Shown here: one piece after another, positions 5,901 through 45,791 of the stretch | How the letters are laid out: the number at the start of each line of letters is the position of its first letter | Position numbering within the stretch: the first letter of the stretch is position 1 | IMG/VR virus record: IMGVR_UViG_3300027977_000008 | Span: 107,944-171,943 of that record | Direction: 5' to 3' (one strand) | From: a virus | DNA: 64,000 bases | The notes under the pieces: generated by a model | Databases searched by the model: none | What the model was told of the DNA's origin: nothing | What the model saw: the letters and a program-made list of their open reading frames with translations, nothing else | Position numbers and translations under genes: made by a program

Positions 5901-6119
5901 ATGTTAGCAGCTATTATTGGTTTAGCAACTTTATGTTGCTTGTTGACATTAGGTTTTGGGGTTGTTATTGGATATTTGGTTAGACTATATTTACAAGATG
6001 TGACACCACAGTATTCACATCCTGAAATGTTTGACCCTAATGGCAACCCACTTCCAGACGAAATTATTGCTTTCAGGTTTGAAGGTAACACAGAACACTT
6101 AGACGAATTTAATGACTAA
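5901..6119 (+). CDS. Small membrane protein
   Basis: A 72-residue protein with an N-terminal hydrophobic helix (residues 3-28, GLATLCCLLTLGFGVVIGYL) and an acidic soluble tail containing MFDPNGNPLPDEIIAFRFE. The tail looks conserved, and I recall similar small proteins in other cyanophages, but its role is unknown. A CCAGGAGA ribosome-binding site precedes the ATG. It is followed after 2 nt by the next gene. Confidence 0.8.
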   Translation: MLAAIIGLATLCCLLTLGFGVVIGYLVRLYLQDVTPQYSHPEMFDPNGNPLPDEIIAFRFEGNTEHLDEFND

Positions 6120-6121
6120 TT

Positions 6122-6571
6122 ATGACAAAACTACCAAATAACCCTTTAGTTTCTGAAGTTTTTAAAGCTGCACACGGCGGTAAAACTATAGAACGAAAGA
6201 TTGAAATCTTACAAGAACACAGAAGTAATCATATCAAATCACTTTTGATTTGGAACTTTGATAAAGGAATTGAAACTATTCTTCCACCTGGTGAAGTTCC
6301 TTATAGAAAGAATGAAGCACCTGCAGGAACACCAGGACATACAAGACTTGCCCATGAATGGAAGGTGCTTTATAACTTTATCAAAGGTGGCAATGACAAG
6401 ATCTCACATATGAAACGTGAGCAAATGTTTATTCAACTTCTTGAATCACTTCATGCTGATGAAGCAGAGATTGTTACTCTAGTAAAAGATAAGGAATTGC
6501 AGTCTAAGTATCGCATCACCAGGAGTGTTGTTGAGCAAGCATATCCAGAAATTGTTTGGCTAGATAAGTGA
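6122..6571 (+). CDS. Conserved T4-like cyanophage protein of unknown function
   Basis: A 149-residue soluble helical protein (FKAAHGGKTIERKIEILQEH, then a helix-rich C-terminal half with MFIQLLESLHADEAEIVTL). It resembles a widespread T4-like phage family of unknown role, possibly the one catalogued as DUF6433; this is from memory and would need a profile search. Its stop overlaps the GTG start of the radical SAM gene. Confidence 0.8.
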   Translation: MTKLPNNPLVSEVFKAAHGGKTIERKIEILQEHRSNHIKSLLIWNFDKGIETILPPGEVPYRKNEAPAGTPGHTRLAHEWKVLYNFIKGGNDKISHMKREQMFIQLLESLHADEAEIVTLVKDKELQSKYRITRSVVEQAYPEIVWLDK

Positions 6572-7683
6572 TTGGAATTTTCATTGATATAACAGATCAT
6601 TGCAATTCTAAATGTCCTCTTTGCACTAGACACAAAGTTTCTAAATTTACAAATGTTGTAGATTTAGTTCCTACAACATTTGTAAATAGATCATCAGTGT
6701 CTATTGAAACTTGGAAAACTTGGTTTTCCCCAAAAGTTCTTGAGAATATTTCTTTTATAAACTTTCAAGGATCATTTGGGGAACCAAGTTTATGTGAAGA
6801 TTTACTAAAAATAATTAAGTATTCAAGATTTATCAATAAAAATATTAATATTTTGATGAGTACTAATGGAGGAACAAGGGATAAAAATTTTTGGAAGTCT
6901 CTTGGTAGACTTTTATTTTTTTCAACTCCCAACTCTAGAGTAATTTTTTCTATTGATGGGTTAGACGATACACTAGCAGAATATAGAGTTGGGGTTGATT
7001 ACAATAAAGTTATAGATAATGCCACTGCTTTCATTTCTGGTGGTGGTAATGCAGAATGGAGGATGCTTGTCTTTAAGCATAATGAACATCAGATTGAAAT
7101 CTGTAAACAAATATCCAAACAACTTGGATTTAAAAAGTTTTCCCACCAAACGGTGAATGGGTTTTGGGATACTTCTGGCATGGGAAGTGGATCTTATAGT
7201 TACGTGTATAATGGTAAATTAAAAACTTTACAAGAAGCTTCTGACCCTAAGTATACAACTAATCGAGGAAAGACAGAGAAAAATTCAGATATTCATTGTG
7301 ACTTCAATCACAAAATAAATTCTATAGGAAATCTCAGAATAGATAGCATGGGGATAGTTCATGCTTGCTGCTATCATCAATCTAGACTAAGGTATTTTTA
7401 TCCCGATTATTATATCAATAAAAATCCAGACGCAAAACCAGTTTATGATGAAAGTATTGATAATCCTAATATGGGATCTGGTGTAAAATATTTGCATAAA
7501 ATTTTTTACGATAGTATTATACCTTTGATAGAAGAGCAGGGTGGATTAAAAAGTATTAATTTAAATTACTTTTCTTTAGATGAAATTATTAACACTCCAT
7601 TTTTTCAGCATAGTTTAATTTCATCGTGGAAAAATCCTGTACATATGTGCAGAGAAAATTGTGGTATTTCTAGAATAAAATAA
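6568..7683 (+). CDS. Radical SAM/SPASM-like enzyme (rSAM1)
   Basis: A 371-residue protein starting at GTG and coupled to the upstream gene. Residues 12-19 contain C-NSK-C-PL-C, the CX3CX2C motif that binds the radical SAM 4Fe-4S cluster, followed by GSFGEPSLCED in the position of the SAM-binding GGEP motif. The C-terminal third has further cysteines (HCDF, HACCYH, HMCRENCG) compatible with an auxiliary cluster domain as in SPASM/twitch enzymes. These enzymes use the 5'-deoxyadenosyl radical; the substrate is unknown. It is only distantly similar to the two other radical SAM proteins in the window. Its base composition is more AT-rich than the neighbouring genes. Confidence 0.88.
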   Translation: MIGIFIDITDHCNSKCPLCTRHKVSKFTNVVDLVPTTFVNRSSVSIETWKTWFSPKVLENISFINFQGSFGEPSLCEDLLKIIKYSRFINKNINILMSTNGGTRDKNFWKSLGRLLFFSTPNSRVIFSIDGLDDTLAEYRVGVDYNKVIDNATAFISGGGNAEWRMLVFKHNEHQIEICKQISKQLGFKKFSHQTVNGFWDTSGMGSGSYSYVYNGKLKTLQEASDPKYTTNRGKTEKNSDIHCDFNHKINSIGNLRIDSMGIVHACCYHQSRLRYFYPDYYINKNPDAKPVYDESIDNPNMGSGVKYLHKIFYDSIIPLIEEQGGLKSINLNYFSLDEIINTPFFQHSLISSWKNPVHMCRENCGISRIK

Positions 7684-7705
7684 GTAACAAACTATACAAA
7701 ATTAC

Positions 7706-7734
7706 TTGCATAGATAGTGTATAGACGCTATAAT
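7706..7734 (+). promoter_or_regulatory. Sigma70-type promoter upstream of riboswitch
   Basis: TTGCAT at 7706-7711 and TATAAT at 7729-7734 are separated by exactly 17 nt. The predicted transcription start near 7741 coincides with the first base of the riboswitch. Confidence 0.85.
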
Positions 7735-7740
7735 GTGTCT

Positions 7741-7794
7741 ACGTTCATTCGCAAATAGCGAACGCAAGTAAGTCGCGGAACGGAGCGTTCATCT
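7741..7794 (+). ncRNA. Glutamine-II (downstream-peptide type) riboswitch candidate
   Basis: The leader has the arrangement of the glnA/downstream-peptide RNA motifs known from marine cyanobacteria and their phages. P1 is CGTTC (7742-7746) with GAACG (7778-7782). An internal hairpin pairs TTCGC with GCGAA (7748-7752 and 7758-7762). The conserved-looking joining segment is GCAAGTAAGT. The P1 3' strand runs into GGAG, the ribosome-binding site of a 29-codon peptide at 7795. A second CGTTC at 7786-7790 could compete for P1. Glutamine binding would be expected to close P1 and hide the ribosome site. The class assignment is from memory of the motif. Confidence 0.72.
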
Positions 7795-7884
7795 ATGGAA
7801 GCAGTTCTTATTACTTGTTTGCAACTTGGACAATTAGTTGGCAGGGTTAATCAATCTTATGCTCCTGCCATAGTGAAGAGGTAA
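7795..7884 (+). CDS. 29-residue peptide controlled by riboswitch
   Basis: ATG 7795 lies 9 nt after CGGAG, which itself overlaps the P1 stem of the riboswitch. The peptide (EAVLITCLQLGQLVGRVNQS in the middle) is short, with an amphipathic hydrophobic N-terminal half. Downstream-peptide riboswitches are named for exactly this arrangement. The peptide's action is unknown; small proteins under glutamine riboswitches in cyanobacteria include inhibitors of glutamine synthetase, but this one is too short to be recognised as such. Confidence 0.6.
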   Translation: MEAVLITCLQLGQLVGRVNQSYAPAIVKR

Positions 7885-7983
7885 ATTATAGAGGAACTCG
7901 TAAGAGTTTCGCCAAAGAAGTGCAGCATAAATGCAAACGGATGAAGGAACGGACCTAAAAATCCATTCATTCAGGAGAAACAA
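7885..7983 (+). promoter_or_regulatory. Structured leader before the DUF4278-like gene
   Basis: This 99-nt gap contains a 7-bp hairpin with a GTAA (GNRA-type) tetraloop at 7893-7910, a short TGCA/TGCA hairpin at 7921-7935, and a 7-bp stem pairing GGATGAA (7939-7945) with TTCATTC (7966-7972). The last stem is next to the TCAGGAG ribosome site of the gene at 7984. It looks like a second cis-acting RNA element; no known class is recognised. Confidence 0.4.
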
Positions 7984-8115
7984 ATGACTACTGCAACGTA
8001 TAGAGGAGTAAAGTATGACGTTGAAGAGCGTAAATTAAATGTTCTTCAACTTCTTAAAGATCAAATTGAAAAAGCAGAGCGCCTTAAGCAAGCACAAATG
8101 CAACTAAAAGGATGA
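7984..8115 (+). CDS. DUF4278-like small cyanobacterial/cyanophage protein
   Basis: A 43-residue protein with the N-terminal ATYRGVKYDV that is characteristic of the short DUF4278 domain found in marine cyanobacteria, followed by a charged amphipathic helix (LLKDQIEKAERLKQAQMQL). A strong TCAGGAG site lies 8 nt upstream. The function of this domain is unknown. It shares the transcript that starts at 7741 and is followed by a terminator. Confidence 0.7.
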   Translation: MTTATYRGVKYDVEERKLNVLQLLKDQIEKAERLKQAQMQLKG

Positions 8116-8121
8116 TTGATT

Positions 8122-8146
8122 GGGAGAATTGACTTTCCCCTTTTTT
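8122..8146 (+). terminator. Rho-independent terminator
   Basis: GGGAGA pairs with TTTCCC (one G-U pair) across ATTGAC, followed by a T run. The loop and 3' arm contain the -35 box of the next promoter. Confidence 0.82.
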
Positions 8147-8157
8147 ATTGGTATAAT
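8129..8157 (+). promoter_or_regulatory. Sigma70-type promoter embedded in terminator
   Basis: TTGACT at 8129-8134 and TATAAT at 8152-8157 are 17 nt apart. The -35 box is inside the terminator hairpin of the preceding transcript. It probably drives the ThyX/carbamoyltransferase/radical SAM operon. Confidence 0.85.
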
Positions 8158-8180
8158 TATTATACGGGAGGTACTATCTA

Positions 8181-8363
8181 ATGCGGTACAAGGAAACAAT
8201 CCGCCTAGTCAAAAAAGCACTAGAGCAACCTTGGAAATATTCTGATGCTGAACTCTTGTACATGAGAAAGGCTTTAGATGATGCTACCTTAGGATTAGCA
8301 ACAAAGAAATTTAACAAGAAAAAGAAAAAAGGATTTGGTTATCATGACAGTGCGATTGATTAG
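8181..8363 (+). CDS. Small basic protein upstream of thyX
   Basis: A 60-residue protein, helical, with a Lys-rich tail (KKFNKKKKKGFG). CGGGAGG 11 nt upstream is a strong ribosome site. It overlaps the thyX start by 20 nt. Function is unknown; the basic tail could bind nucleic acid. Confidence 0.75.
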   Translation: MRYKETIRLVKKALEQPWKYSDAELLYMRKALDDATLGLATKKFNKKKKKGFGYHDSAID

Positions 8364-8976
8364 TGCGACATCAGATGCAGAAAAAACAATGGCATATATT
8401 GCTAGAGTTTCTAATCCTGCAAATCAAGATAATGAAAACTATACAGGTTTGTTACGTTATTGTATCAAGCACAATCATTGGTCTGTGTTTGAGCACGCTT
8501 TTATGACTTTGGAAATTGAAACGAACCGTGGTATAGCGGCTCAAGTGCTCCGACATAGAAGTTTTACATTCCAAGAATTCTCACAACGTTATGCTGATAC
8601 AAATCTTTTAGCAGAAGAAATACCATTACCAGAACTTCGTAGACAAGATACTAAAAATCGTCAGAATTCTATTGATGATATTGATGAGGAGAAAGTATTC
8701 GTAATGAATAAGATGATTAGAGACCTGTTTAAGGACGCTCAAGACACGTACAACTTTCTTTTGGAACAAGGAGTAGCAAAAGAATGCGCTCGTTTTGTGC
8801 TTCCTTTGGCAGTAAAAACAAAAATTTATATGACTGGATCTGTCAGGTCATGGATTCATTATATTAATCTTCGTTCTGCAAATGGAACTCAGAAGGAGCA
8901 TATGGATATTGCAAATGAGTGTAAAAAAGTATTTGTGGAACAGTTTCCTGCGGTATCCGAATCACTTGAGTGGTGA
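8344..8976 (+). CDS. thyX: Flavin-dependent thymidylate synthase
   Basis: A 210-residue ThyX with the diagnostic motif RHRSFTFQEFSQRY at about residues 70-83, an upstream HWSVFEHAFMT segment and the late YMTGSVRSWIHYINLR region. ThyX methylates dUMP to dTMP using methylenetetrahydrofolate and reduced FAD/NADPH, and is widespread in cyanophages. ATG 8344 is preferred over TTG 8335 because it gives the usual MTVRLISAT start. The stop overlaps the next start by one base (TGATG). It supplies dTMP for phage DNA synthesis. Confidence 0.96.
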   Translation: MTVRLISATSDAEKTMAYIARVSNPANQDNENYTGLLRYCIKHNHWSVFEHAFMTLEIETNRGIAAQVLRHRSFTFQEFSQRYADTNLLAEEIPLPELRRQDTKNRQNSIDDIDEEKVFVMNKMIRDLFKDAQDTYNFLLEQGVAKECARFVLPLAVKTKIYMTGSVRSWIHYINLRSANGTQKEHMDIANECKKVFVEQFPAVSESLEW

Positions 8977-10562
8977 TGAAAGTATTAGGAATAAACTTAG
9001 CAAAGAATGGATCTATTGCAATAGTCAATGATGGTAATCTAGAATTTTATCTTGAAGAGGAAAGAGTTACTAGGAAAAAACGTGACGTTGGTGCATATGC
9101 ACTATGTGAAAAGTTTGTTGATAGCACTGTTGATGTTGCAGTTTATTCTGATTGTTTTACGCGATATTCATTTAAAAACAATCTAGAAAGAGTTACTGCT
9201 AGAAAAAAACTAGAACAACTTTTACATTCTAGGGGTGTAAAAGAAGTCTTAGATTTTTCTGATCATCATCATGAGTGTCATGCAGCATCTGCTTTTTATG
9301 GATCTGGATTTGATGATGCCGTTTGTGTTGTGATGGATGGGAAAGGATCTGTAATCCGAAAAAATGGGACTTTATTTTGTGAAACAGAAAGCATTTATAA
9401 CTATGTAAATGGAAAATTTGTTTCACTATTCAAACACTATTCTTGTTTTTATAATCGTGCATTATGTGAAAAAATTGACAAACCTTTTTGGGACGGCAAC
9501 AACTTATTCAGCAATCGAGTAAGTATTGGGCAAGCATTTAGATGTGTTTCTGGATATTGTGGATTTGATGAAATTGAAGCTGGTAAAACCATGGGATTAT
9601 CTTCTTATGGTTCTGGTCCAGTCAATCTTTTCAACGAAGAATACGGACATAGTTTTTGTAGTAAAGATATCTATCCTAGAGATAATACTGGATGGACAAA
9701 ATATTATGGTGAAGAAACTACAAATGAAAATTTAGCATACAATCTACAGAAATCTGCTGAAAAACATGCAATCTATATGATCAAAAAGGCAGTTGAACTT
9801 TCTGGAAAAAAGAATGTTGTAGTTTCTGGTGGGTTTTTTTTGAATTGTGTTTCCAACTATAATGTGTTAAAATCTTTAGACATAAATTTATATGCTGATC
9901 CGCTGTCATATGATGGAGGACATGCATTTGGATCTGCAATGCTAGTTTCTGATAAAAAGACAACTATGAAAACACTATACTTAGGACCAACTTATGATCT
10001 TTCTCACATTGAAGGAAAGGATACTTCGTATAGTGAAGTTGCACGACTAATTTCTGAGAAGAATATTGTTGCAATGTTTCAAGGAAGATCTGAAGCTGGT
10101 CCTAGAGCATTGGGGAACAGATCTATTCTCTATGATCCTAGAGATCCAAATGGAAAAGATCACGTCAACACAATTAAAAAACGTGAGACATTTAGACCTT
10201 TTGCGGGAACAGTTCTAAATGAATATGTTCATGAGTGGTTTGACATGGCAGGTATGGAAGAAAGTCCTTTTATGATGTATGCTGTTGATGCACATCTTGA
10301 TGCTTGGGAACATATTCCTGCAATTCTTCATGTAGATAAAACCTGCAGAATTCAAACGCTAACTAAGGAACAGAATGAACATTACTATAATTTGATTGAA
10401 GCATTTTATGAAAAGACAAGAGTTCCTATTTTATTCAATACATCTTTCAATCTTGCAGGCGAACCACTTGTAGAGACACCAGAAGATGCATTGAAAACTT
10501 TTTATAATAGTGATATCAAGTATCTTTATTTTCCCGAAGTTCAGAAACTTATAATCAAATGA
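8976..10562 (+). CDS. Carbamoyltransferase, NodU/CmcH/TobZ family (full length)
   Basis: A 528-residue protein with both domains of the family. The N-terminal Kae1-like ASKHA domain begins KVLGINLAKNGSIAIV and has the metal-binding HHHECHAASAFYG near residues 97-108 and VVSGGFFLNCVSNY near 280. The C-terminal YrdC-like domain has GRSEAGPRALGNRSIL near 370 and FNTSFNLAGEPLVETPEDA near 490. In TobZ the YrdC-like domain makes carbamoyladenylate and the Kae1-like domain transfers the carbamoyl group to a hydroxyl of the substrate. The substrate here is unknown. It is coupled to thyX upstream and overlaps a second, shorter family member downstream. Confidence 0.9.
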   Translation: MKVLGINLAKNGSIAIVNDGNLEFYLEEERVTRKKRDVGAYALCEKFVDSTVDVAVYSDCFTRYSFKNNLERVTARKKLEQLLHSRGVKEVLDFSDHHHECHAASAFYGSGFDDAVCVVMDGKGSVIRKNGTLFCETESIYNYVNGKFVSLFKHYSCFYNRALCEKIDKPFWDGNNLFSNRVSIGQAFRCVSGYCGFDEIEAGKTMGLSSYGSGPVNLFNEEYGHSFCSKDIYPRDNTGWTKYYGEETTNENLAYNLQKSAEKHAIYMIKKAVELSGKKNVVVSGGFFLNCVSNYNVLKSLDINLYADPLSYDGGHAFGSAMLVSDKKTTMKTLYLGPTYDLSHIEGKDTSYSEVARLISEKNIVAMFQGRSEAGPRALGNRSILYDPRDPNGKDHVNTIKKRETFRPFAGTVLNEYVHEWFDMAGMEESPFMMYAVDAHLDAWEHIPAILHVDKTCRIQTLTKEQNEHYYNLIEAFYEKTRVPILFNTSFNLAGEPLVETPEDALKTFYNSDIKYLYFPEVQKLIIK

Positions 10563-11410
10563 ATATCTTAGGAATAAATCTTTCCAATAATGGATCTATT
10601 TGCTTACTCAAAGATGGGCAAGTAGATTTTTATTTGGAAGCAGAAAGAATTACAAGAAAAAAACTTGATTATATTGTCAAAGATCTTGTAGATTATGTAT
10701 CTGATGTTGATGTGATTGCAACAGTTGATGCTCATTGGGTTGGAGCTGAAAAAAATATGCTTAGCGCAAGAGATATCGCACGGTTCAGACGTGCATTTCC
10801 CAATGCTAAACACGTTGATTACAAGAAGTCTCATCATCTAGCACATGCTGCAGGAGCATTTTATAGTTCTAGATTTGATGAGGCAGTTTGTATTGTAGTT
10901 GATAGTAATGGATCTAGTATCGCAGATAAACTAGAAATTGAAACCATCTTTCATGCAAAGACTGACAACAGATTTCAATGGAAAACTATACATAAAAAAT
11001 ATTGGGATCCACCTGAAAATGGTATAGGAAAACTATTTGAATATGTGTCTAAGTTTTGTGGATTTGGTCGAGATGATGCTGGTAAAGTTATGGGATTGTC
11101 ATCTTACGGATTTAATAAAGTGGATCTAAGTAATCTTGCACTTAAATCAAAAGAAGACGCTGCATATACAATTCAAATTCTTTGGGAAGAACGTGCATTA
11201 GAACTTGCTAATCTTGCAATCAAAAAAACAAAGTGTAAGAACCTTGTATTATCTGGTGGATGTTTCTTGAACTGTGTTGTTAATTACAAACTTCGCAAAC
11301 AATTACCAAAAGATGTTAAAATGTATGTTGAACCAGTTGCACATGATGGTGGAACTTCTATAGGAGCTGCTTACCTTGCCTATTACAATCCCAAAATTAA
11401 AAATTCTTGA
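10559..11410 (+). CDS. Carbamoyltransferase-family protein, Kae1-like domain only
   Basis: A 283-residue paralog of the preceding protein: start NILGINLSNNGSICLL, metal motif KSHHLAHAAGAFYSSRFDEA near residue 91, and LVLSGGCFLNCVVNYKLRKQ near 235. It stops just after EPVAHDGGTSIGAAYLAYY. The whole YrdC-like carbamoyladenylate-forming domain is missing, so alone it should not make the intermediate. It could be a regulatory or substrate subunit of a heteromer with the full-length protein. The start overlaps the previous stop (ATGA); the end overlaps the next radical SAM gene by 35 nt. Confidence 0.85.
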   Translation: MNILGINLSNNGSICLLKDGQVDFYLEAERITRKKLDYIVKDLVDYVSDVDVIATVDAHWVGAEKNMLSARDIARFRRAFPNAKHVDYKKSHHLAHAAGAFYSSRFDEAVCIVVDSNGSSIADKLEIETIFHAKTDNRFQWKTIHKKYWDPPENGIGKLFEYVSKFCGFGRDDAGKVMGLSSYGFNKVDLSNLALKSKEDAAYTIQILWEERALELANLAIKKTKCKNLVLSGGCFLNCVVNYKLRKQLPKDVKMYVEPVAHDGGTSIGAAYLAYYNPKIKNS

Positions 11411-12182
11411 TATCAGTGCAACGATTGGATGCAATCTAAGTTGTAAAGGATGTAATCATTTCAGTAATTATTTTGCCCCCGGTAGCAAATTAGATACAGA
11501 TAAACTCATTCAAGATATCCACACCATCCTGCCCAGGATAGACGTAGAACGTGTCTCAGTCATTGGCGGGGAACCATTGCTCAATGTACGCTGCCGAGAC
11601 ATCTTACACGCTTGTCTAGAGCATACAGAGACAGTCTATCTGTATACAAATGGCATACTTCTTAATGAAGAAAACCGAGAATGGATTGAAGAAGACTTAG
11701 AAAAATATCCTGGCATGTCTTTACGTGTTAGTATTCATACTCCAGATGTTATTGATAACATCAACAAGGTAAAGAGTAGCAAAGTTTTTGTTACAGAACA
11801 CCATGATGGCAAAGATCGATGGTTCAGTTCTATCAAACAATCTAACGGTAAAGTATACCCTTATGTTCATAATAACATAAAACAAAGTTATGAGTTGTGC
11901 TCTTGTCCCAATACACAACTATTCGATGGTAAACTTTGGAAGTGTCCTAATGCAGCATTTTTAAAAGAACTTCTTTATGTTACTGAACAATTAGAAGAAG
12001 ATTTTTGGAAACCTTTTATTGGTGATGGATTACCAGTTGACTGTAGTGATGAGGATCTGGTAAAATTATGTGATAACTCTAGTAAACCTGAACAAATATG
12101 TAACATGTGTACTGCTAGACCATTGAAGTTTAGCGCAGCATTACAAACCAATAATCATAAAAAGATTATTACAACACAATAA
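11376..12182 (+). CDS. Radical SAM enzyme with C-terminal cysteine cluster (rSAM2)
   Basis: A 268-residue protein. Residues 19-26 are C-NLS-C-KG-C, the CX3CX2C cluster motif, followed by VSVIGGEPLLN (SAM-binding GGEP). The C-terminal part has C-S-C...LWKCPNAAFL and ICNMCTARP, an arrangement suited to an auxiliary Fe-S cluster. It is clearly paralogous to the protein at 14140. The start is taken as TTG 11376, inside the preceding gene, because no ATG precedes the cluster motif; this is unusual and leaves a short N-terminus. The sulfur/radical chemistry and substrate are unknown, and adjacency to carbamoyltransferases suggests one pathway. Confidence 0.85.
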   Translation: MPITIPKLKILDISATIGCNLSCKGCNHFSNYFAPGSKLDTDKLIQDIHTILPRIDVERVSVIGGEPLLNVRCRDILHACLEHTETVYLYTNGILLNEENREWIEEDLEKYPGMSLRVSIHTPDVIDNINKVKSSKVFVTEHHDGKDRWFSSIKQSNGKVYPYVHNNIKQSYELCSCPNTQLFDGKLWKCPNAAFLKELLYVTEQLEEDFWKPFIGDGLPVDCSDEDLVKLCDNSSKPEQICNMCTARPLKFSAALQTNNHKKIITTQ

Positions 12183-12185
12183 ATA
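12178..12185 (+). promoter_or_regulatory. Possible late promoter AATAAATA
   Basis: A one-base variant of TATAAATA that overlaps the rSAM2 stop codon, 19 nt before the ATG at 12205. It could add late transcription to the phoH group. Confidence 0.3.
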
Positions 12186-12204
12186 TTTACGAATTGAAAT
12201 AATT

Positions 12205-12456
12205 ATGCCCATATATCCTGTAAGACATTTAGAAACTGGGGAAACACAGGAACTTGCTATGTCTATCTCTAATTACGATCAGTGGAGAAAAGACAATCCC
12301 GAATGGGATAAAGATTGGTCTGCTGGTGTCGCTTCTGCTGTGAGTGCTGTAGGTGACGTTTATAGTAGAACTGATGGTGGATGGAATGAAATCCTTCACA
12401 AAGTCAGCAAAATGCCTGGTTCAAAAGTAAAACCTCAAAAAACAACGCACTTCTAA
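12205..12456 (+). CDS. FmdB-like N-terminus small protein
   Basis: An 83-residue protein starting MPIYPVRHLETGETQELAMS, the strand pattern of FmdB-type small zinc-ribbon proteins of phages, but the cysteines are absent, so metal binding is unlikely. The rest is Trp/Asp/Ser-rich. It is followed by phoH after a single base. Function unknown. Confidence 0.7.
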   Translation: MPIYPVRHLETGETQELAMSISNYDQWRKDNPEWDKDWSAGVASAVSAVGDVYSRTDGGWNEILHKVSKMPGSKVKPQKTTHF

Positions 12457-12457
12457 A

Positions 12458-13213
12458 ATGACCTCAAGGAAAAAAAGAACTCCTTCTCAAGTCGGCGCTG
12501 GCATGTCTGCAAAACAAATATCCAGAAAAAAACCTTTCAATATCGATATGGTGGTTGATATTGAACCACTTACAGAAAATCAAACAAAAGTTTTTGATTC
12601 ATATAAAGAAGATAAAAACTTATTTGTTTATGGTGCAGCAGGTACGGGTAAAACATTTATTACTCTTTACCTTGCATTGAAAGAAGTCCTTAATCCTTTG
12701 ACTCCATACAATCGAGTTGTAATTGTACGATCATTAGTTGCAACTCGTGAAATTGGTTTCCTTCCTGGAGATCATGAAGATAAATCTTCTCTTTACCAAA
12801 TTCCTTATAAGAATATGGTAAAATATATGTTTGAGTTACCCACTGACAATGACTTTGAAATGTTATGGGGTAATCTCAAGACGCAAGAAAGCATAAAGTT
12901 TTGGTCAACATCTTTCATTCGTGGTACTACTCTTGACGATTGTATTGTAATTGTTGACGAATGCCAGAACTTGAATTTTCACGAATTAGATAGTATAATT
13001 ACTAGAGTTGGTGAGAACTGCAAGATTCACTTCTGTGGTGATGCTTCGCAGTCAGATCTTGTCAAAACAAATGAGCGACATGGAATTCTTGATTTCATGA
13101 AGATCATTCACGCAATGCCCGAATTTGATTCTTTTGAATTTGGACCTCAGGATATTGTTAGATCTGGTCTTGTCAAGAGTTACATTCTAAACAAAATTAA
13201 TTTGGGTCTCTGA
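12458..13213 (+). CDS. phoH: PhoH-like ATPase
   Basis: A 251-residue P-loop ATPase with Walker A GAAGTGKT at residues 58-65 and Walker B CIVIVDECQN near 161-170, preceded by the Q-motif-like LTENQTKVFDSY. The sensor-like region is HFCGDASQSDL. This is the PhoH fold, related to superfamily 1 helicases and very common in marine T4-like phages. The role in infection is unsettled (phosphate stress or RNA metabolism). The stop overlaps the next start by one base. Confidence 0.92.
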   Translation: MTSRKKRTPSQVGAGMSAKQISRKKPFNIDMVVDIEPLTENQTKVFDSYKEDKNLFVYGAAGTGKTFITLYLALKEVLNPLTPYNRVVIVRSLVATREIGFLPGDHEDKSSLYQIPYKNMVKYMFELPTDNDFEMLWGNLKTQESIKFWSTSFIRGTTLDDCIVIVDECQNLNFHELDSIITRVGENCKIHFCGDASQSDLVKTNERHGILDFMKIIHAMPEFDSFEFGPQDIVRSGLVKSYILNKINLGL

Positions 13214-13893
13214 TGTTTCAACATGTTGATATTGAGTTTCCCGCACTTAAGCGGGAAACAATTGATGGAGTTCGATATTATGATGTAGAAGGTAGACCGA
13301 TGGTATCTATTACCTCGGTCACCTCGCATTACAACAAAGAAATTTTTGTCAAATGGCGAGCGAAGATTGGTGAAGAAGAAGCAAACCGTATTTCTAAACG
13401 CTCCACAAATCGTGGTACAAAAGTACACACTTGTATAGAAAACTTCCTTTGGAATAAGAACGTTCTAGATACAGATCCTTTGCCAATGATGTTATTTACC
13501 CAGGCAAAAAAAATTCTAGGAAATATAGATAACATTTACGCTCTTGAGAAATCTTTATACAGTAAACATCTGGGTGTTGCTGGTACTGTAGATTGTATTG
13601 CTGAGTACACGGGAGAAAGTGGTGTTCCAGAACTTGCAATCATTGACTTCAAGACTGCAGAAAAACCAAAACCAAGGGCATGGATCGAAAATTATTTTGT
13701 ACAAGCAGCAGCGTATGCTTGCATGTTTTACGAAATGACTAACATCCCAGTAAAGAAACTTGTCATTTTGATGACTTGCGAAAACGGGGAAGTTGAGGTT
13801 TACGAAGAGTATGATAAAAAACAATACATAGAAAAACTAGTTAAATACATTCAAAAATTTGTGGAAGACAAACTAAATGACTACAAAAACTGA
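13213..13893 (+). CDS. PD-(D/E)XK superfamily exonuclease
   Basis: A 226-residue protein with GTVDCIAEY near residue 124 and LAIIDFKTAEKPK near 142-152, giving the D...DxK metal-binding core of PD-(D/E)XK nucleases. The QAAAYACMFYE helix that follows is typical of the Cas4/RecB-like exonuclease branch. Homologues sit in the replication module of cyanomyoviruses. It probably degrades or processes host or recombination DNA. It is coupled to phoH upstream and overlaps gp33 by 17 nt. Confidence 0.82.
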   Translation: MFQHVDIEFPALKRETIDGVRYYDVEGRPMVSITSVTSHYNKEIFVKWRAKIGEEEANRISKRSTNRGTKVHTCIENFLWNKNVLDTDPLPMMLFTQAKKILGNIDNIYALEKSLYSKHLGVAGTVDCIAEYTGESGVPELAIIDFKTAEKPKPRAWIENYFVQAAAYACMFYEMTNIPVKKLVILMTCENGEVEVYEEYDKKQYIEKLVKYIQKFVEDKLNDYKN

Positions 13894-14140
13894 AATCAAA
13901 TCTGTCATAAAAAGTAAATTTTTATGTCAAGATAAGTTTACTAATGACATCGAAAACATTGTAAAAGATAATTCTGACATGAATTATATTGAAGCAATTT
14001 GTTTTTATTGTGAACAAAATACGATTGAACTTGAATCGATTATAAAACTTATTTCCAAACCACTAAAAGAAAAACTCAAGTGTAATGCAACTAATCTAAA
14101 TTATTTAAATAGAACTTCTAATGCGAAATTTTTTATCTGA
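13877..14140 (+). CDS. 33: gp33-like late-transcription coactivator
   Basis: An 87-residue protein whose C-terminal two thirds match the T4-type late coactivator pattern: NYIEAICFYCEQNTIELESI, LISKPLKEKLKCNATNLNYL, ending in a short hydrophobic tail. In T4, gp33 bridges RNA polymerase and the sliding clamp so that late promoters (TATAAATA) are read on replicating DNA. Many such promoters occur in this window. It lies between exonuclease and rSAM3, overlapping both. Confidence 0.78.
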   Translation: MTTKTEIKSVIKSKFLCQDKFTNDIENIVKDNSDMNYIEAICFYCEQNTIELESIIKLISKPLKEKLKCNATNLNYLNRTSNAKFFI

Positions 14141-15171
14141 TGGACAAAGAACTTAAAGCAAAAGTTGATTATGTAAGAGGTTTAAAAGGATTTTGGGTAG
14201 ATAATTTTAAACAGATTACCGTTGAGCAAATTGCAGAATTAGAAAAACAAAGACCCACTACAAGACTTCTTAGTATTCATACAATAAACGGTTGCAATCT
14301 TTCTTGTAGAGGTTGTAATCATAATAGTAGTTTGCTTTCAGGAAAAAGTACTGTAAATATTGATCAACTGATAGAAGATATTGAAAATATTCTTCCTAAA
14401 ATTTATGTTTGGAGCCATGTTAGTATTATTGGTGGAGAACCATTATTAGAACCGAGGACAAAGGAAGTTACAAGAATTGTAAGAGAACTTTGTTACGGTG
14501 AACGTGGATCACAACCATGTAATGTAAAGTTATTCAGCAACGGATCTAGACTTCTTCAGGAAAAGGAATGGATTGCTGATGAGATGTTGAAAGGAGTTAT
14601 TTTTAGACTTACTTTTCATCGTCCACCATATACACAAGCAGGTAAAAAAGATTGGGAGAATGGGTATGAGTTCACTCATTATCTAATTGAACGTGGGGTT
14701 GATATTGACAATAAGTTTGAGTTGAGTGAAGCGTATTTACAACCAGACAACACTCCAAGGGTATGGTTTGATCTAGTAAAGTATGAATTCAATGAAGATG
14801 GATCAGTAAAATATTACCCACATGAAGATGGTAATCCATCTTCTAGTTTTAAACATTGTACTTGTGCTAATTCACAATTATATAATGGACATCTATGGAA
14901 ATGTCCGATGGTAGCATATCTAAGAGAATCTTTAGCAGCAACTGATCAGTTAGAAGATCCTGAATGGCAAAAATATCTTGGATATAAACCAACTAATATC
15001 AATGACACTGAGGAAGCACTTAGAAGTTCATTCAAAGAAGTTGTAGAACCTGGTTGGATCTGTAACATGTGCCCAAGCAGACCAAAAATTGAATATGCTG
15101 CTAAAATACAATTGAAAGGACAGAAGAGGACAGTTGAAATGTTCGATCCTAAAAATTATGAACCCGTTTGA
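14140..15171 (+). CDS. Radical SAM enzyme with C-terminal cysteine cluster (rSAM3)
   Basis: A 343-residue paralog of rSAM2. CX3CX2C occurs at residues 52-59 (CNLSCRGC), with VSIIGGEPLLE following. The C-terminal half has HCTCANSQLYNGHLWKCPM and ICNMCPSRP, matching rSAM2 residue for residue around the cysteines. It has an extra 33-residue N-terminal extension and a longer middle. It sits between gp33 and gp59, genes that are neighbours in related phages as far as I recall, so it looks inserted. The start overlaps gp33 by one base; the end overlaps gp59 by 14 nt. Confidence 0.87.
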   Translation: MDKELKAKVDYVRGLKGFWVDNFKQITVEQIAELEKQRPTTRLLSIHTINGCNLSCRGCNHNSSLLSGKSTVNIDQLIEDIENILPKIYVWSHVSIIGGEPLLEPRTKEVTRIVRELCYGERGSQPCNVKLFSNGSRLLQEKEWIADEMLKGVIFRLTFHRPPYTQAGKKDWENGYEFTHYLIERGVDIDNKFELSEAYLQPDNTPRVWFDLVKYEFNEDGSVKYYPHEDGNPSSSFKHCTCANSQLYNGHLWKCPMVAYLRESLAATDQLEDPEWQKYLGYKPTNINDTEEALRSSFKEVVEPGWICNMCPSRPKIEYAAKIQLKGQKRTVEMFDPKNYEPV

Positions 15172-15760
15172 TACTTATAAACAATATCTTGCATTCAAAC
15201 AACATTTTACTAGAAAAAATTATGATTACTTTAGATATGGTGGTAAGTCTAGAGCAAGTTTGAATTCTTTTTACAAAAGAAAAGACAGATACTTCTTTGA
15301 AAAAATGTCGAGGAAGTATAATGATGATGAGATCAAGTTATTTTTTATTGCTAACTTCGTAGCGTGTGACAATCCAAATTCTTTATGGATTGGTGAGATT
15401 ATTCGATCTGGTGAAAGTGTTTATTCTTCTTGGCAAGGAAGACAGCAAAGTTTGTTTTATCAGTTCAAGCAACACACAGAAGATTTGTTGTCTGAATACA
15501 ACCTAGAAGAACTATTTGATGCTTCAAGGCAACATCCACCAGTTTTAAAAAATTTCTTGAGTGGGAATATTAGCATCGAAACCATTACAATATACGACAA
15601 AATATTCCTGTTTGGCAACAATCTTGATAAGAAATTGACTGACCCAATTTGGGAAGCGATTAGTTTAAAACTAAAAAAGTATGCACCGTTTCTAAATATT
15701 GATGCCGTCAAATACAAACAATATTTGCGGGAACGACTATTGGAGAAGACGCATGGGTAA
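15158..15760 (+). CDS. 59: gp59-like helicase loader
   Basis: A 200-residue protein beginning NPFDTYKQYLAFKQHFTRK and then YDYFRYGGKSRASLNSFYKR, typical of the T4 gp59 family. It contains FFIANFVACDNPNSLWIGEI. gp59 loads the gp41 helicase onto gp32-coated DNA at forks and recombination intermediates. ATG 15158 is preferred over an upstream TTG because it gives the family start. It overlaps the next gene by 8 nt. Confidence 0.9.
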   Translation: MNPFDTYKQYLAFKQHFTRKNYDYFRYGGKSRASLNSFYKRKDRYFFEKMSRKYNDDEIKLFFIANFVACDNPNSLWIGEIIRSGESVYSSWQGRQQSLFYQFKQHTEDLLSEYNLEELFDASRQHPPVLKNFLSGNISIETITIYDKIFLFGNNLDKKLTDPIWEAISLKLKKYAPFLNIDAVKYKQYLRERLLEKTHG

Positions 15761-16085
15761 GTTTTTTCAGTCTGAGATTATCCGTGAAGAGATGGAAGAC
15801 ATCTTTAGAATTCAAAAAGAATTATATGAAGTTATTATTCAGTTTAGTTCGTTTAGTGATAAAGAAAAGAATGAACACATTGAAAAACTAAAGACACTTT
15901 TAGATAAACAAGAAATCATGTGGACAAGACTTTCATTGTCCGATGATCGGGAAGCATTAGAAATGAAAGAAAAAATCAAGATAACATCAGCAGCAATGGG
16001 GTTTAAAGATGTTGATATGTCAATCATCTTCAATAACATGAGAAGAACCTTGGAAGGTTTACAAAAACGCCTTGACACACCCTAA
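15753..16085 (+). CDS. DUF1825-like protein
   Basis: A 110-residue helical protein starting GKFFQSEIIREEMEDIFRIQ and containing HIEKLKTLLDKQEIMWTRLS. It matches the DUF1825 family shared by cyanobacteria and cyanophages, where the role is unknown. Longer upstream in-frame starts lie inside gp59 and are less likely. The gp32 promoter begins inside its 3' end. Confidence 0.82.
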   Translation: MGKFFQSEIIREEMEDIFRIQKELYEVIIQFSSFSDKEKNEHIEKLKTLLDKQEIMWTRLSLSDDREALEMKEKIKITSAAMGFKDVDMSIIFNNMRRTLEGLQKRLDTP

Positions 16086-16101
16086 ATGGTATGTTATAAT
16101 A
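16073..16101 (+). promoter_or_regulatory. Consensus sigma70 promoter for gp32
   Basis: TTGACA at 16073-16078 and TATAAT at 16096-16101 are both perfect, with a 17-nt spacer. This is the best sigma70 promoter in the window. The predicted start near 16108 leaves a leader of about 37 nt. Confidence 0.93.
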
Positions 16102-16144
16102 TAACAGGTAATCAATCCACCCAATCTAAAAATACAAAAATCTT

Positions 16145-17059
16145 ATGTCTTTTGCAGATCTAAAAAAACAATCTCGCCTTGGCAGTTTGACTTCTAAACT
16201 GACAACAGAGATTGAAAAAATGAATAAGAGCACCACTGGTGGTGCTGATGATCGTGTATGGAAACCTGAAGTAGATAAAGCAGGCAACGGTTATGCAGTA
16301 ATTCGTTTTCTACCTGCACCACAAGGTGAAGAATTGCCTTGGGGAAAAGTGTGGTCACATGCTTTTCAAGGTCCAGGAGGTTGGTATATTGAGAACAGTC
16401 TGACCACGCTTGGTGGTAAAGATCCTGTTTCGGAGTACAATCGTATTCTTTGGAACAGTGGTAGTGAAGTAGATAAAGAACAAGCACGTAAGCAGAAGCG
16501 TAAACTATCTTACATTAGCAACATCTATGTTGTGAAGGATCCTGCTAATCCCCAGAACGAAGGCAAAGTTTTTCTATTCAAGTTTGGTAAGAAAATCTTT
16601 GATAAGATTACTGCTGCCATGCAACCTGAGTATGAAGATGAGCAAACGATTGATCCGTTTGACTTCTGGCAAGGTGCAAATTTCAAGATGAAAATCAAGA
16701 ACGTTGCTAGTTATCGTAACTACGACAGTTCTGAGTTTGCAAAATCTGAACCACTTCTGGATGATGATGATGCACTTGAAGCAATTTGGAAAAAACAGTA
16801 TTCTCTTGAAGAGTTTACTCGTCCTGATCAGTTCAAGTCCTACGAAGAACTTGAAAAGCGTATGAATATGGTTCTAAATCCTAACGCTTCTAGTCGTCGT
16901 GTTGATCCTGATACGTTCGATGAGGAAGAGCAAGTTGTGATGAAGTCTCGCCAACAAATCAAGGAAGAAGAGCGTGTTGTTAAGTCATCTCCTGCTCCTG
17001 TAGCAGCAGATGATGATGACGATACACTGTCTTACTTCCAGCGACTTGCTGAAGAGTGA
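16145..17059 (+). CDS. 32: Single-stranded DNA-binding protein gp32
   Basis: A 304-residue protein with the gp32 plan: basic N-terminal cooperativity region (FADLKKQSRLGSLTSKL), OB-fold core with GNGYAVIRFLPAPQGEELPW and WYIENSLTTLGGKDPV, and a very acidic C-terminal tail (ADDDDDTLSYFQRLAEE) that recruits partner proteins. It coats ssDNA in replication and recombination and works with gp59. It has its own strong promoter and a terminator, so it is an independent transcription unit. Confidence 0.95.
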   Translation: MSFADLKKQSRLGSLTSKLTTEIEKMNKSTTGGADDRVWKPEVDKAGNGYAVIRFLPAPQGEELPWGKVWSHAFQGPGGWYIENSLTTLGGKDPVSEYNRILWNSGSEVDKEQARKQKRKLSYISNIYVVKDPANPQNEGKVFLFKFGKKIFDKITAAMQPEYEDEQTIDPFDFWQGANFKMKIKNVASYRNYDSSEFAKSEPLLDDDDALEAIWKKQYSLEEFTRPDQFKSYEELEKRMNMVLNPNASSRRVDPDTFDEEEQVVMKSRQQIKEEERVVKSSPAPVAADDDDDTLSYFQRLAEE

Positions 17060-43311: not shown

Positions 43312-44298
43312 GTGTTCGCTGATCAATCTGATAAGTGGCACCATTCAATCTGCAGGTATTTGGGGTTATCCTCAGATACCTCTTTTTTATTTGGTGTAAT
43401 TCCTGGTGTTTGTCGTGAAGTTCTCGGCAGACGTGATTTTATGTATACACAACCAGAATGTTTTAATGCTACTAAAGTATATTGTTTTACTGAACCACAC
43501 AACAATAAAATAAACAACAGTAAAGTTGTTCGTTCATACTATGGTGTTTGTCCATTTTTATGGGATCTTGGTGTAACTGCAATTAAAAAAGAATACGATC
43601 CTAAAGGTTCGTTATTTTTTTTACCAAGAGATGATGTAGGAACAATTCGTAAAGACGAATGGCAATCGGTGCAAGATGTTATTGATAATGCACCAAAACC
43701 AATTACATTCTTATTACCTTGGAGGCAGTGTGATATATGGAAACATTGGAATAAGTTATCTTTACCGGAAGATTGTAACTTTGTGCAAATGTCCGATAAA
43801 GAAACAAGACAATTTGTTTTGTCCGAGTTATTTTTAACCCACAAAAACATTTATATTCCTTGGCCAGGTACAGATGTTTATTTTGCAGAATTTTTAGAAA
43901 AAAATATTATTATCTACGATGACATCAAAAAATATAGGACTAAGACTGTTGATGAAGGTGGCAAACAAATTCAATCAAAAGTTCTTAGATTTTTAAAGTG
44001 GGGGTATGATTATCTAAATGATACACAAAAACAATTTTTTCACTGGACAGAAAAGTGGAATGATTTATCTTTAGGCGATAGAAGATTTCTTACAACAAAA
44101 ATGTTAGGACTTGATGTATTGAAATCGCCTAAAGAGTTATTTGATGATATGAAATTAAACGGATTTCTTCAAGAAGAATTAGAATTTGTGTGTGATGAAA
44201 ACTATCAAAAGTCTTATGAGTGGTTGAAAACTAAATCTGAAAAATTTGTCAATTCTAATTGTAGTAGTGAGTGTGCTACCATATTGGGTAAACTTTAG
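43312..44298 (+). CDS. Unknown protein, possibly carbohydrate-related
   Basis: A 328-residue soluble protein starting at GTG 43312. It has no clear catalytic motif. It contains TFLLPWRQCDIWKHWNKLSL and NIYIPWPGTDVYFAEFLEKN, a pattern reminiscent of surface-polysaccharide or glycosyltransferase-like proteins, and it lies next to sugar-metabolism genes on the opposite strand. This is weak inference. It ends convergently, overlapping the HAD gene by 4 nt. Confidence 0.65.
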   Translation: MFADQSDKWHHSICRYLGLSSDTSFLFGVIPGVCREVLGRRDFMYTQPECFNATKVYCFTEPHNNKINNSKVVRSYYGVCPFLWDLGVTAIKKEYDPKGSLFFLPRDDVGTIRKDEWQSVQDVIDNAPKPITFLLPWRQCDIWKHWNKLSLPEDCNFVQMSDKETRQFVLSELFLTHKNIYIPWPGTDVYFAEFLEKNIIIYDDIKKYRTKTVDEGGKQIQSKVLRFLKWGYDYLNDTQKQFFHWTEKWNDLSLGDRRFLTTKMLGLDVLKSPKELFDDMKLNGFLQEELEFVCDENYQKSYEWLKTKSEKFVNSNCSSECATILGKL

Positions 44299-44648
44299 AA
44301 TTGCCGAAAAAAATCGTTGTCTTCCCAACCTTTATCATCAACGTAATGTGCTGCACGAGGTTTACCAAAAAACAACTGATGATATAAAACACCCCATTCT
44401 TTTAGTTGTTTTTCCGTAAATTCTCGCATTAATTTATCTGCTTCTGCTTGATTGTTGTTAGATCCAAGCATACCACGAGCAGTCATCAGGTAAATCTGAG
44501 CACCTTTTTGATATAGACGATTAACAACACTAATTCGTGAAAGAATTGGTTGAGCATCTTTAAGGTTACAGTTTTCTTCTGTGCAAAGAGTACCATCAAT
44601 ATCAAAGCAGTAGATCTCTGCCTTATCATCAATATCAGAAACAATCAT
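44295..44648 (-). CDS. HAD-superfamily phosphatase
   Basis: A 117-residue protein with the catalytic motif CFDIDGTLC (nucleophile and acid Asp), motif II IYLMTARG and a C-terminal HYVDDKGWEDNDFF acidic motif. It is short, without a cap domain, as in KdsC- or GmhB-type sugar phosphatases. Coupled (4-nt overlap) to the SIS isomerase gene, it is probably the dephosphorylation step of a sugar pathway. Confidence 0.8.
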   Translation of the reverse strand: MIVSDIDDKAEIYCFDIDGTLCTEENCNLKDAQPILSRISVVNRLYQKGAQIYLMTARGMLGSNNNQAEADKLMREFTEKQLKEWGVLYHQLFFGKPRAAHYVDDKGWEDNDFFRQF

Positions 44649-45106
44649 GGCAATTTAGGAAGTGTAATCCCATTATACGACATAAGCATATACATTGTCC
44701 AGAGTGCATTGACTTCAAATTCGTGATATGTTTCTACATCAAGAACAATTGTCTCAATGGTCTTATGTTTTTGTGGTGCAATCAATACAACAGGCATACC
44801 ATACTCAACATCTTCTAGAGCAGTCACCAATGAAGATTGCATCCTGCAACTAATACCAATAATTAGATCTGCTGTATGACAAGCATAATCTACCCATTTT
44901 TCATGCCATCCACCATCAACATCAAATGCAGTGATTGAAATACTATCAGGAGCAAAACAGAATTTATCTGTATGGCGATAAATATCAGATGCCATATGTT
45001 GAGCAACTGCTAAGTTGCCGCCATTACCAATTAGAGCAATTTTAGATGCTTTACCAAACATCTTTGCTGCTTGTTCAATATTGCCGTTTTGAAAGTTCAT
45101 GTTCAA
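44645..45106 (-). CDS. SIS-domain sugar isomerase, GmhA-like
   Basis: A 153-residue protein with the SIS-domain phosphate-binding signature ALIGNGGNLAVAQHMASDIY and LIIGISCRMQSSLVTALED, similar to phosphoheptose isomerases (sedoheptulose 7-phosphate to heptose 7-phosphate). It is shorter than GmhA, lacking part of the C-terminal helix. It overlaps the upstream KdsB-like gene by 32 nt and the HAD gene by 4 nt. Confidence 0.78.
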   Translation of the reverse strand: MNMNFQNGNIEQAAKMFGKASKIALIGNGGNLAVAQHMASDIYRHTDKFCFAPDSISITAFDVDGGWHEKWVDYACHTADLIIGISCRMQSSLVTALEDVEYGMPVVLIAPQKHKTIETIVLDVETYHEFEVNALWTMYMLMSYNGITLPKLP

Positions 45107-45791
45107 TTTCTTGGATGTGAGATTGTCTATCTACTGCTCTTATTTTACCACATTTTAGATCATATGGCAATACTTCATATTTTCCACAAAAACCAATCGT
45201 ATCTAATCCTTTCCAATATTCAACAAATCCCATATCAAGATTAGGAAAATCACAGATTACATCTCGTTTATAAAAATATAATCCCAATTGCACCGTGATA
45301 TTTTTGCACATTACATCTGGTGTTCTTTGCATATGAACAACTCTACCATTATTTTCAATCATCTTAACAACATCTTCGTCTTCAAGATCATCAGGTTCTA
45401 GTTGTCTTGATGCTTGAACCATATCATAATCGTTATCAACACCAAACTCAATAATGTTATCGATCCATGCAGGATTTGTTAACGGTTCGTCTCCTTGCAA
45501 ATTAAAAACATAATCACTTTCTAGAGTTTGAGATACCTCTGACACGCGATGAGTGCAGGTATAGTGTTGATCTGTAAGTTGTGATTGATATCCATTGATT
45601 TCACATAAGCGTTTGATGATTTCGTCTTCTGTAGCTACAATGATTTGATCAAAATACTTAGATTGTTTTGCAATATCTGCAACACGTACTACCATTTCAC
45701 GTCCTAGTATCCTAGCAAGTGGTTTGCCATGAAATCGACTAGATTTCATTCTTGCTGGGATGACACAAGTTATTTTTTTATTGTTATACAT
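45075..45791 (-). CDS. KdsB-like 3-deoxy-manno-octulosonate cytidylyltransferase
   Basis: A 238-residue nucleotidyltransferase with the signature CVIPARMKSSRFHGKPLARI, IVATEDEIIKRL and YVFNLQGDEPLTNP, matching the CMP-KDO synthetase family (CTP plus KDO gives CMP-KDO). An upstream ATG at 45809 is in frame, but the minus-strand late promoter motif would overlap it, so 45791 is preferred. It heads the three-gene sugar module. Confidence 0.88.
   Translation of the reverse strand: MYNNKKITCVIPARMKSSRFHGKPLARILGREMVVRVADIAKQSKYFDQIIVATEDEIIKRLCEINGYQSQLTDQHYTCTHRVSEVSQTLESDYVFNLQGDEPLTNPAWIDNIIEFGVDNDYDMVQASRQLEPDDLEDEDVVKMIENNGRVVHMQRTPDVMCKNITVQLGLYFYKRDVICDFPNLDMGFVEYWKGLDTIGFCGKYEVLPYDLKCGKIRAVDRQSHIQEIEHELSKRQY

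Follow-up and report, generated by a model that had tools for sequence, protein, structure and literature searches.

What might a cyanophage do with two carbamoyltransferase-family proteins and three radical S-adenosylmethionine (SAM) enzymes encoded close together, and which of these genes form a unit? The question is raised by a 64,000-nucleotide stretch of viral DNA (termed here the window), namely bases 107,944-171,943 of the 171,943-bp IMG/VR record IMGVR_UViG_3300027977_000008. The record belongs to a cyanomyovirus (172-kb); besides T4-like genes for replication and structure, it has genes that by eye resemble psbA and psbD. Phages can alter their own or their host's surface chemistry, which is relevant to adsorption and superinfection, and to our knowledge few such surface reactions have been worked out in cyanophages infecting the ocean's main photosynthesisers. 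An earlier reading of the bare sequence (the original prediction) had joined the five genes with ThyX into a candidate modification pathway acting on a nucleotide or DNA base, a cofactor or a surface glycan. The reading preferred here, held with about even confidence, is that the window encodes a phage sugar- or glycan-tailoring module in which one subunit, CTc, serves two Kae1-type proteins, Kae1a and Kae1b, each with its own twitch radical SAM enzyme. All six genes of the prediction are present with the expected domains, and the head-to-tail overlaps downstream of ThyX were confirmed; the features, all on the + strand, are as follows.

6568-7683, +: rSAM1, a SPASM/twitch-type radical SAM protein, accessory (371 aa; PF04055, E 1.3e-6, 29.2 bits, cut-off 29.5)
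8335-8976, +: ThyX, a backbone gene flanking the insertion site (PF02511, E 7e-50)
8970-10562, +: fused carbamoyltransferase, Kae1a plus CTc (530 aa; PF02543, E 1e-19, and PF16861, E 2e-61)
8970-9944, +: Kae1a, the N-terminal Kae1-type carbamoyl-transfer domain, accessory pair A (PF02543; iron-ligand positions H100, H104, D123 and D315)
9945-10562, +: CTc, a YrdC-like carbamoyl-adenylate-forming domain, the predicted shared subunit (PF16861, E 1.6e-61)
10559-11410, +: Kae1b, a free Kae1-type carbamoyl-transfer protein, core pair B (283 aa; PF02543, E 6e-25; ligand positions H92, H96, D115 and D263)
11376-12182, +: rSAM2, a SpeY/BtrN-like twitch radical SAM protein, core pair B (268 aa; PF04055, E 2e-9)
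12205-12456, +: phrog385 (annotated as RbpA in phage S-SCSM1), the downstream backbone flank of the insertion site
14140-15171, +: rSAM3, a radical SAM protein of twitch type, paralogous to rSAM2; accessory pair A (343 aa; PF04055, E 3e-7)

The core of this arrangement consists of three genes in a fixed order: CTc, Kae1b and rSAM2. A scan of IMG/VR with rSAM2 found 136 stretches encoding relatives, and the results given here rest on the best 80 of these 136. The order CTc-Kae1-rSAM2 is kept in 74 of the 80 loci that show both CTc and phrog385 (with the Kae1 and rSAM2 genes lying between these two), a figure in which rSAM2 is over-counted because most loci were fetched using rSAM2; given this conserved order together with the rSAM2 relatives, chance is therefore excluded. 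Carbamoyl-transfer and radical SAM genes thus go together across cyanophage contigs, as the original prediction had anticipated. The exceptions are L097 and the isolate S-RIM44, which have Kae1 without rSAM2; L136, which has neither; L140 and L144, in which Kae1b is followed by a 209-aa protein that is SGNH-like by eye and has no Pfam match; and L057, whose gene order is broken and unusable. Two further loci, L138 and L141, are cut before CTc and have Kae1b without rSAM2. In L140 and L144 the SGNH-like protein stands in for rSAM2 after Kae1b, as another partner swap. The locus L097 (PAQA01000006.1) is titled a Rhodospirillaceae metagenome-assembled genome (MAG) but appears to be a phage contig that ended up in a bacterial MAG bin: its order is DUF6433-ThyX-CTc-Kae1b-phrog385-PhoH-exonuclease-gp33, then a second full carbamoyltransferase, a SPASM radical SAM gene, a glycosyltransferase-like open reading frame (ORF), rSAM3b (a type related to rSAM3), an epimerase and an aminotransferase-like ORF (the two '-like' ORFs by eye).

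The carbamoyltransferase itself is best understood as split. The single-cell record AG-345-D19 carries, in sequence, ThyX, a stand-alone CTc of 206 aa, Kae1b (286 aa), rSAM2, phrog385 and PhoH. Stand-alone CTc ORFs were likewise found in S-RIM44, S-SCSM1, L013 and L047, and in the isolates S-RIM44, Sf-FP1 and S-SCSM1 CTc alone precedes a Kae1 gene at the same site. Among 81 loci (the 80 from the rSAM2 scan plus AG-345-D19), Kae1a is fused to CTc in 17, is an adjacent gene in 8, is separated from it by other DNA in 16, is absent from 17 and was not callable in 23. The start Met of the stand-alone CTc is kept inside the fused genes in all six of the six scanned and lies, in the window, at position 9966 (KTTMKTLYLGP). 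Because relatives carry the two parts as separate genes or miss Kae1a, the window's 'full-length' carbamoyltransferase is CTc with Kae1a in front. Thus a full-length carbamoyltransferase and a Kae1-only paralog do occur side by side, as had been noted; what had been missed is the split nature of the enzyme and its two Kae1/radical SAM pairs. The genes lying between CTn and CTc in split forms (pyrimidine-dimer-glycosylase-like, PurM-like and others, by eye) were rejected as parts of the system, and the pyrimidine-dimer-glycosylase-like one was used as a negative control. Upstream of the module, AG-345-D19 has an amidinotransferase-like ORF (9853-11148, - strand) and a sulfotransferase-like ORF (11200-12042, + strand), both recognised by eye.

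Several of these forms have been annotated before. S-RIM44, Sf-FP1 and S-SCSM1, where the split enzyme is labelled Nol-like or carbamoyl transferase, share the order ThyX-CTc-Kae1-phrog385-PhoH; they differ in having no radical SAM partner at the site and in Kae1 proteins only 27-30% identical to the window's. The split, paired enzyme accounts for the two Nol-like carbamoyltransferase genes that are annotated side by side in several isolates. Cyanophage carbamoyltransferases as such have long been known, as the available part of PMC3037559 indicates. For the split, paired form, none of the listed titles and abstract openings of open-licence PMC papers gives a description of a split double-Kae1 enzyme with radical SAM pairs.

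The pairing is supported by paralogy and by joint gain and loss. Kae1a and Kae1b are 35% identical and rSAM2 and rSAM3 33%, a similar level in both sets of paralogs. Kae1a and rSAM3 lie about 4 kb apart with conserved genes between them; nevertheless, among the 34 callable of the 81 loci, 23 have both, 2 have Kae1a only, none has rSAM3 only and 9 have neither. Adding the loci of other scans and grouping by contig name gives 106 contigs, of which 64 could not be called for the two traits together; in the 42 callable ones the corresponding counts are 30, 2, 0 and 10 (Fisher p 4.5e-8, uncorrected for kinship). When mapped on a tree built from four backbone proteins, Kae1a needs at least 6 changes and rSAM3 needs 8. 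The tree provides 5 independent pairs, of which on average 4.7 are concordant, 0 opposite and 0.3 without difference (sign test, median p 0.0625); when rSAM3 is taken as the leading trait there are 6 pairs, on average 4.5 the same, 0 opposite and 1.5 without difference. No association with rSAM3 was seen for a control gene located in the same region (p 1.0). Two close relatives illustrate both kinds of loss: L013, 95-100% identical to the window in shared genes, is missing both Kae1a and rSAM3, and L136, 85-91% identical in shared genes, keeps the fused Kae1a-CTc and rSAM3 and is missing both Kae1b and rSAM2 (41 bp separate its CTc match from phrog385). L136 is one of two loci counted as lacking both Kae1b and rSAM2; the other is L057, with its broken gene order. 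Because Kae1a tracks rSAM3, and because L136 loses Kae1b and rSAM2 together, the two pairs (Kae1a-rSAM3 and Kae1b-rSAM2) appear to share one CTc, and the pairing is well supported. Three loci (L077, L078 and L084) have a tandem pair of rSAM3-type genes between gp33 and gp59.

Both Kae1 proteins retain the metal site of known carbamoyltransferases. In GdmN the iron ligands are H133, H137, D156 and D333, and H27 is the proposed general base (PMC9633730, available part). The four corresponding positions are conserved in 82, 82, 83 and 83 of 83 Kae1b sequences (that is, in all that align) and in 44, 45, 46 and 46 of 46 Kae1a sequences, the remainder being unaligned. The 530-aa protein thus resembles class III O-carbamoyltransferases of the NodU family, such as TobZ and GdmN, in having both Pfam domains (PF02543 and PF16861), and both Kae1a and Kae1b resemble them in the HxxxH, D, D ligand positions; it differs in that CTc and Kae1 are separate genes in relatives and that one CTc goes with two Kae1 paralogs.

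The radical SAM partners point toward sugar or cyclitol oxidation. In rSAM2 the CX3CX2C motif and a twitch-type auxiliary set (C175-x9-G185-x4-C190 ... C242-x2-C245) are conserved in 84-85 of 85 sequences, one of which is unaligned at two positions, and the four matching auxiliary cysteines of rSAM3 are conserved in 56 of 56; the C-terminal cysteine set earlier said to be common to the two is therefore real. The predicted model of rSAM2 (predicted local distance difference test, pLDDT, 82.5), the only one of the two that was compared, supports a radical SAM plus twitch fold. Its best match is SpeY, of spectinomycin synthesis (Foldseek E 1e-10; Z 19.5, root-mean-square deviation 2.9 A, 234 residues aligned), with BtrN, of butirosin synthesis, as runner-up (Z 12.7), and SpeY is also the best match in a sequence search of the PDB (E 3e-9). 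NCBIfam names rSAM2 and rSAM3 only far below its cut-offs (as MoaA, viperin-like and others). According to the available part of PMC9012708, the substrate oxidised by BtrN is an aminocyclitol, and its auxiliary cluster is a four-cysteine one. rSAM2 shares with these dehydrogenases the CX3CX2C motif, the CX9GX4C...CX2C auxiliary set and its best fold and sequence match; it differs in being only 19% (SpeY) and 17% (BtrN) identical in structural alignment, in being phage-borne and in being paired with a carbamoyl-transfer subunit. Such a match between a predicted model and SpeY does not by itself prove the reaction.

The substrate is most likely a sugar or glycan, a reading that is favoured by the sugar genes beside carbamoyltransferases in several phages and by this genome's own glycan cluster. 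At the same site S-SCSM1 differs from the window in having two CTc-Kae1 pairs and then, before phrog385, an annotated deoxythymidine diphosphate (dTDP)-D-glucose 4,6-dehydratase. Sf-FS3 encodes two such proteins, one a full carbamoyltransferase and the other a carbamoyltransferase-domain protein with Kae1 only; the genes around them carry the annotations cytidylyltransferase-like, PfkB kinase, phosphoheptose isomerase and epimerase. S-CAM3 has one carbamoyltransferase in a similar setting. In S-SCSM2R nucleoside diphosphate (NDP)-sugar epimerases and a GT10 gene follow the carbamoyltransferase, and a radical SAM homologue lies among glycosyltransferases. In the genome under study a glycan cluster lies at about 90.3-107.4 kb, immediately ahead of psbA and the window; of 10 ORFs tested there, 8 match sugar-enzyme families. 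Those class III carbamoyltransferases that lack a dimerisation domain mostly have polar acceptors, e.g., tobramycin (PMC9633730, available part). Among the substrates first considered, a surface glycan therefore fits best given this sugar-gene context. Further along the window lies one more candidate feature:

43312-46315, strand not assigned: possible sugar cassette (a CTP_transf_3 cytidylyltransferase, a weak HAD-like protein, and two proteins that by eye are SIS-like and VOC-like)

Only the cytidylyltransferase is well above its cut-off; the region is possibly a cytidine monophosphate (CMP)-sugar cassette that supplies substrate.

The domain make-up, the split and fused forms, the joint gain and loss of pairs and the conserved metal and cysteine ligands are all read from sequence; the chemistry, the sharing of carbamoyl-AMP, the sugar as acceptor and the part played in biology are inferred, as follows. 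CTc would convert carbamoyl phosphate and ATP to carbamoyl-AMP; Kae1a (fused to CTc) and Kae1b (free) would each carbamoylate a hydroxyl (or amine) on an acceptor of its own, Kae1a working with rSAM3 and Kae1b with rSAM2; and the twitch radical SAM enzymes would, most likely, convert a secondary alcohol on that same sugar into a ketone, the kind of oxidation that BtrN performs on its cyclitol. The outcome would probably be a sugar, both carbamoylated and oxidised, on a glycan of a surface or of the virion. A more tentative proposal, which we consider possible but doubtful, is that of a plug-in system: one subunit making carbamoyl-AMP and two acceptor-specific Kae1 proteins, each with a radical SAM sugar dehydrogenase, such that phages add or drop a two-step decoration as a pair, and the His-to-Asn change in Kae1b signifies an acceptor chemistry unlike that of TobZ and GdmN. 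With two pairs, enzymes of known fold and clear states of gain and loss, the pairs Kae1a-rSAM3 and Kae1b-rSAM2 are directly testable, and the module may represent a new route to carbamoylated keto-sugars.

Several findings weigh against this reading. As regards the pairing, a sign test with 5 pairs has a floor at 0.06; L020 and L062 carry Kae1a without rSAM3 (at the rSAM3 site L020 has a SPASM-like radical SAM gene and a glycosyltransferase-like gene, both by eye); and rSAM3b is present without Kae1a in L097 and probably also in the L035-L037 group (L035, L036, L037 and L094 by 400-mer grouping, which merges different contigs), which has no Kae1a and a 45%-identical rSAM3-type gene, i.e., rSAM3b (by contig name L036 is uncallable for Kae1a). 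As regards the chemistry, the catalytic-base position of Kae1b is Asn rather than His in 77 of 77 aligned sequences, so that its reaction may differ. As regards the fold, the RiPP (ribosomally synthesised and post-translationally modified peptide) enzyme SuiB (Z 12.1) and viperin-like nucleotide-acting enzymes (11.3) stand close behind BtrN, with SkfB and others at about 11. As regards context, a bacterial sample of 20 proteins, covering 11 of 23 loci, has glycosyltransferase genes in only 4 of the 11, namely L101 (Maf type), L105, L113, where a DegT aminotransferase is also present, and L116, with none in the remaining 7; and epimerase and GT2 genes occur in only 3 of 9 module-bearing records, one of which is the window's own 100%-matching contig, while the remaining 6 span 32-112 kb.

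The base position might suggest that Kae1b is a decaying duplicate, with the fused enzyme alone active and the radical SAM genes unrelated cargo, given that Kae1b lacks both the base His and, by Pfam search, the C-terminal (PF16861) domain. Yet all four metal-ligand positions are kept (82-83 of 83), Kae1b is the sole Kae1 protein accompanying CTc at the site in AG-345-D19 and other Kae1a-less loci (17 of 58 callable), and Kae1a/rSAM3 and Kae1b/rSAM2 are gained and lost as pairs; this explanation, which we consider very improbable, was rejected on the conserved ligands and on the paired gain and loss with rSAM2. With its metal-ligand positions kept and Asn at the base position, Kae1b seems to be functional, though with altered chemistry, and because the base His is absent it is described here as working like class III members rather than as a standard member. 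In Kae1a the position equivalent to GdmN H27 is Lys in 32 and His in 10 of 42 aligned sequences. The same His-to-Asn change as in Kae1b is borne by the TobZ crystal chain 3vex, where it presumably carries the label H14N.

The fold comparison likewise admits RiPP-like modification of a peptide or protein by the twitch enzymes, inasmuch as SuiB, SkfB, EpeE and anSME all stand close behind BtrN (Z 11-12); it is nevertheless very unlikely, for SpeY is far above the RiPP enzymes in both sequence and fold, and because the spacing between rSAM2 and phrog385 is -2 to 33 bp in 75 of 80 loci there is no space between them for a precursor gene. A better contender, still unlikely, is that the module product is not a glycan but a free small molecule (aminoglycoside- or nucleoside-like) acting on the host or on competing phages. 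TobZ, SpeY, BtrN and BlsE all come from antibiotic pathways (for BlsE, the available part of PMC3715490), viperin-like nucleotide-acting enzymes are among the rSAM2 fold matches, and the module is located away from the genome's own glycan cluster; on the other hand, inspection by eye picked out no gene for scaffold building, export or resistance next to the module, and the sugar-nucleotide dehydratase that follows the carbamoyltransferase pairs in S-SCSM1 favours the glycan-tailoring module.

A further rival is hypermodification of a DNA base or nucleotide, yielding, with the help of ThyX, a carbamoylated pyrimidine. The ThyX and carbamoyltransferase genes do overlap, and a phage carbamoyltransferase acting on 5-hydroxymethylcytosine (5hmC) exists; as described in the available text of PMC8670742, that enzyme is, like the one here, phage-borne with PF02543/PF16861, it co-occurs with a PF00303 hydroxymethylase, and carbamoyltransferases of unmodified contigs are instead flanked by unrelated genes, e.g., glycosyltransferases. 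The enzyme here differs in being split and paired and in lying in a genome without a PF00303 match: no PF00303 hydroxymethylase/synthase was found in its own record (0 of 1) or in 9 other module-bearing records, which may be fragments, while controls were positive in 9 of 14 genomes. (ThyX belongs to a family distinct from PF00303.) Moreover, ACG-2014b has ThyX followed directly by phrog385, PhoH, exonuclease, gp33 and gp59, and S-CAM8 has the same order, apart from an additional small ORF behind ThyX, up to gp33, at which its record stops. Both phages were confirmed by tblastn, and neither has a carbamoyltransferase there. Because the ThyX-phrog385-PhoH-exonuclease-gp33 run exists in these two phages without the module, ThyX is a flank, a backbone gene, and its earlier casting as a module partner does not survive. 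DNA modification was rejected on the missing PF00303, subject to the records possibly being fragments, and is highly improbable; the DNA base is thus unsupported among the substrates originally listed.

The sugar- or glycan-tailoring module instead occupies three gaps in the backbone: DUF6433/ThyX (rSAM1), ThyX/phrog385 (the carbamoyltransferase genes and rSAM2) and gp33/gp59 (rSAM3), so that the backbone genes phrog385 (RbpA-like), PhoH, exonuclease and gp33 lie between rSAM2 and rSAM3. Of the five-gene pathway first proposed, the CTc/Kae1/rSAM2 core and the Kae1a-rSAM3 link stand, and rSAM1 is only partly tied to them, being present in 12 of 26 Kae1a-bearing and 0 of 13 Kae1a-less contigs (p 0.003). 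A scan of IMG/VR for rSAM1 found 342 relatives, and among the best 80 of these 342 the 41 groups holding rSAM1 relatives comprise 34 with rSAM1 alone, 5 with rSAM1 and ThyX and 2 with the whole module (tblastn at E 1e-4 with the window proteins as queries). In 39 of the 41, therefore, there is no carbamoyltransferase, rSAM2 or rSAM3 within the stretch covered, and rSAM1 was rejected as a core member; by its sequence distribution it is an accessory, found at this site only alongside Kae1a. Its CX3CX2C motif and auxiliary cysteines are conserved in 13-14 of 14 sequences, and the GX4C pattern is present; its predicted model is poor (pLDDT 50.6), a PDB sequence search gave no match at E 0.01, and paralogy with rSAM3 is undetectable by BLASTP.

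Some minor observations concern other carbamoyltransferases and the surrounding DNA. A third carbamoyltransferase with both Pfam domains is encoded in the same genome outside the window (G000:C1, about 6470-7861; L120); near it are a protein with weak likeness to DUF6071 and an ORF with weak likeness to sulfotransferases. The S-SCSM2R carbamoyltransferase (PQ898602.1, 190827-192419) is labelled a 2-oxoglutarate (2OG)-Fe(II) oxygenase, likely a misannotation, and the NodU-type gene at 172009-173613 of OP807803.1 is possibly what the MS29 paper calls pyrBI/aspartate carbamoyltransferase (PMC10436341, available part). An Rfam search of window positions 6000-16200 gave zero matches at the gathering threshold; this region includes the rSAM1-ThyX gap, where about 500 bp (7684-8180) hold no listed + strand ORF of 60 aa, and in 4 relatives gaps of about 690 bp are found between rSAM1 and ThyX.

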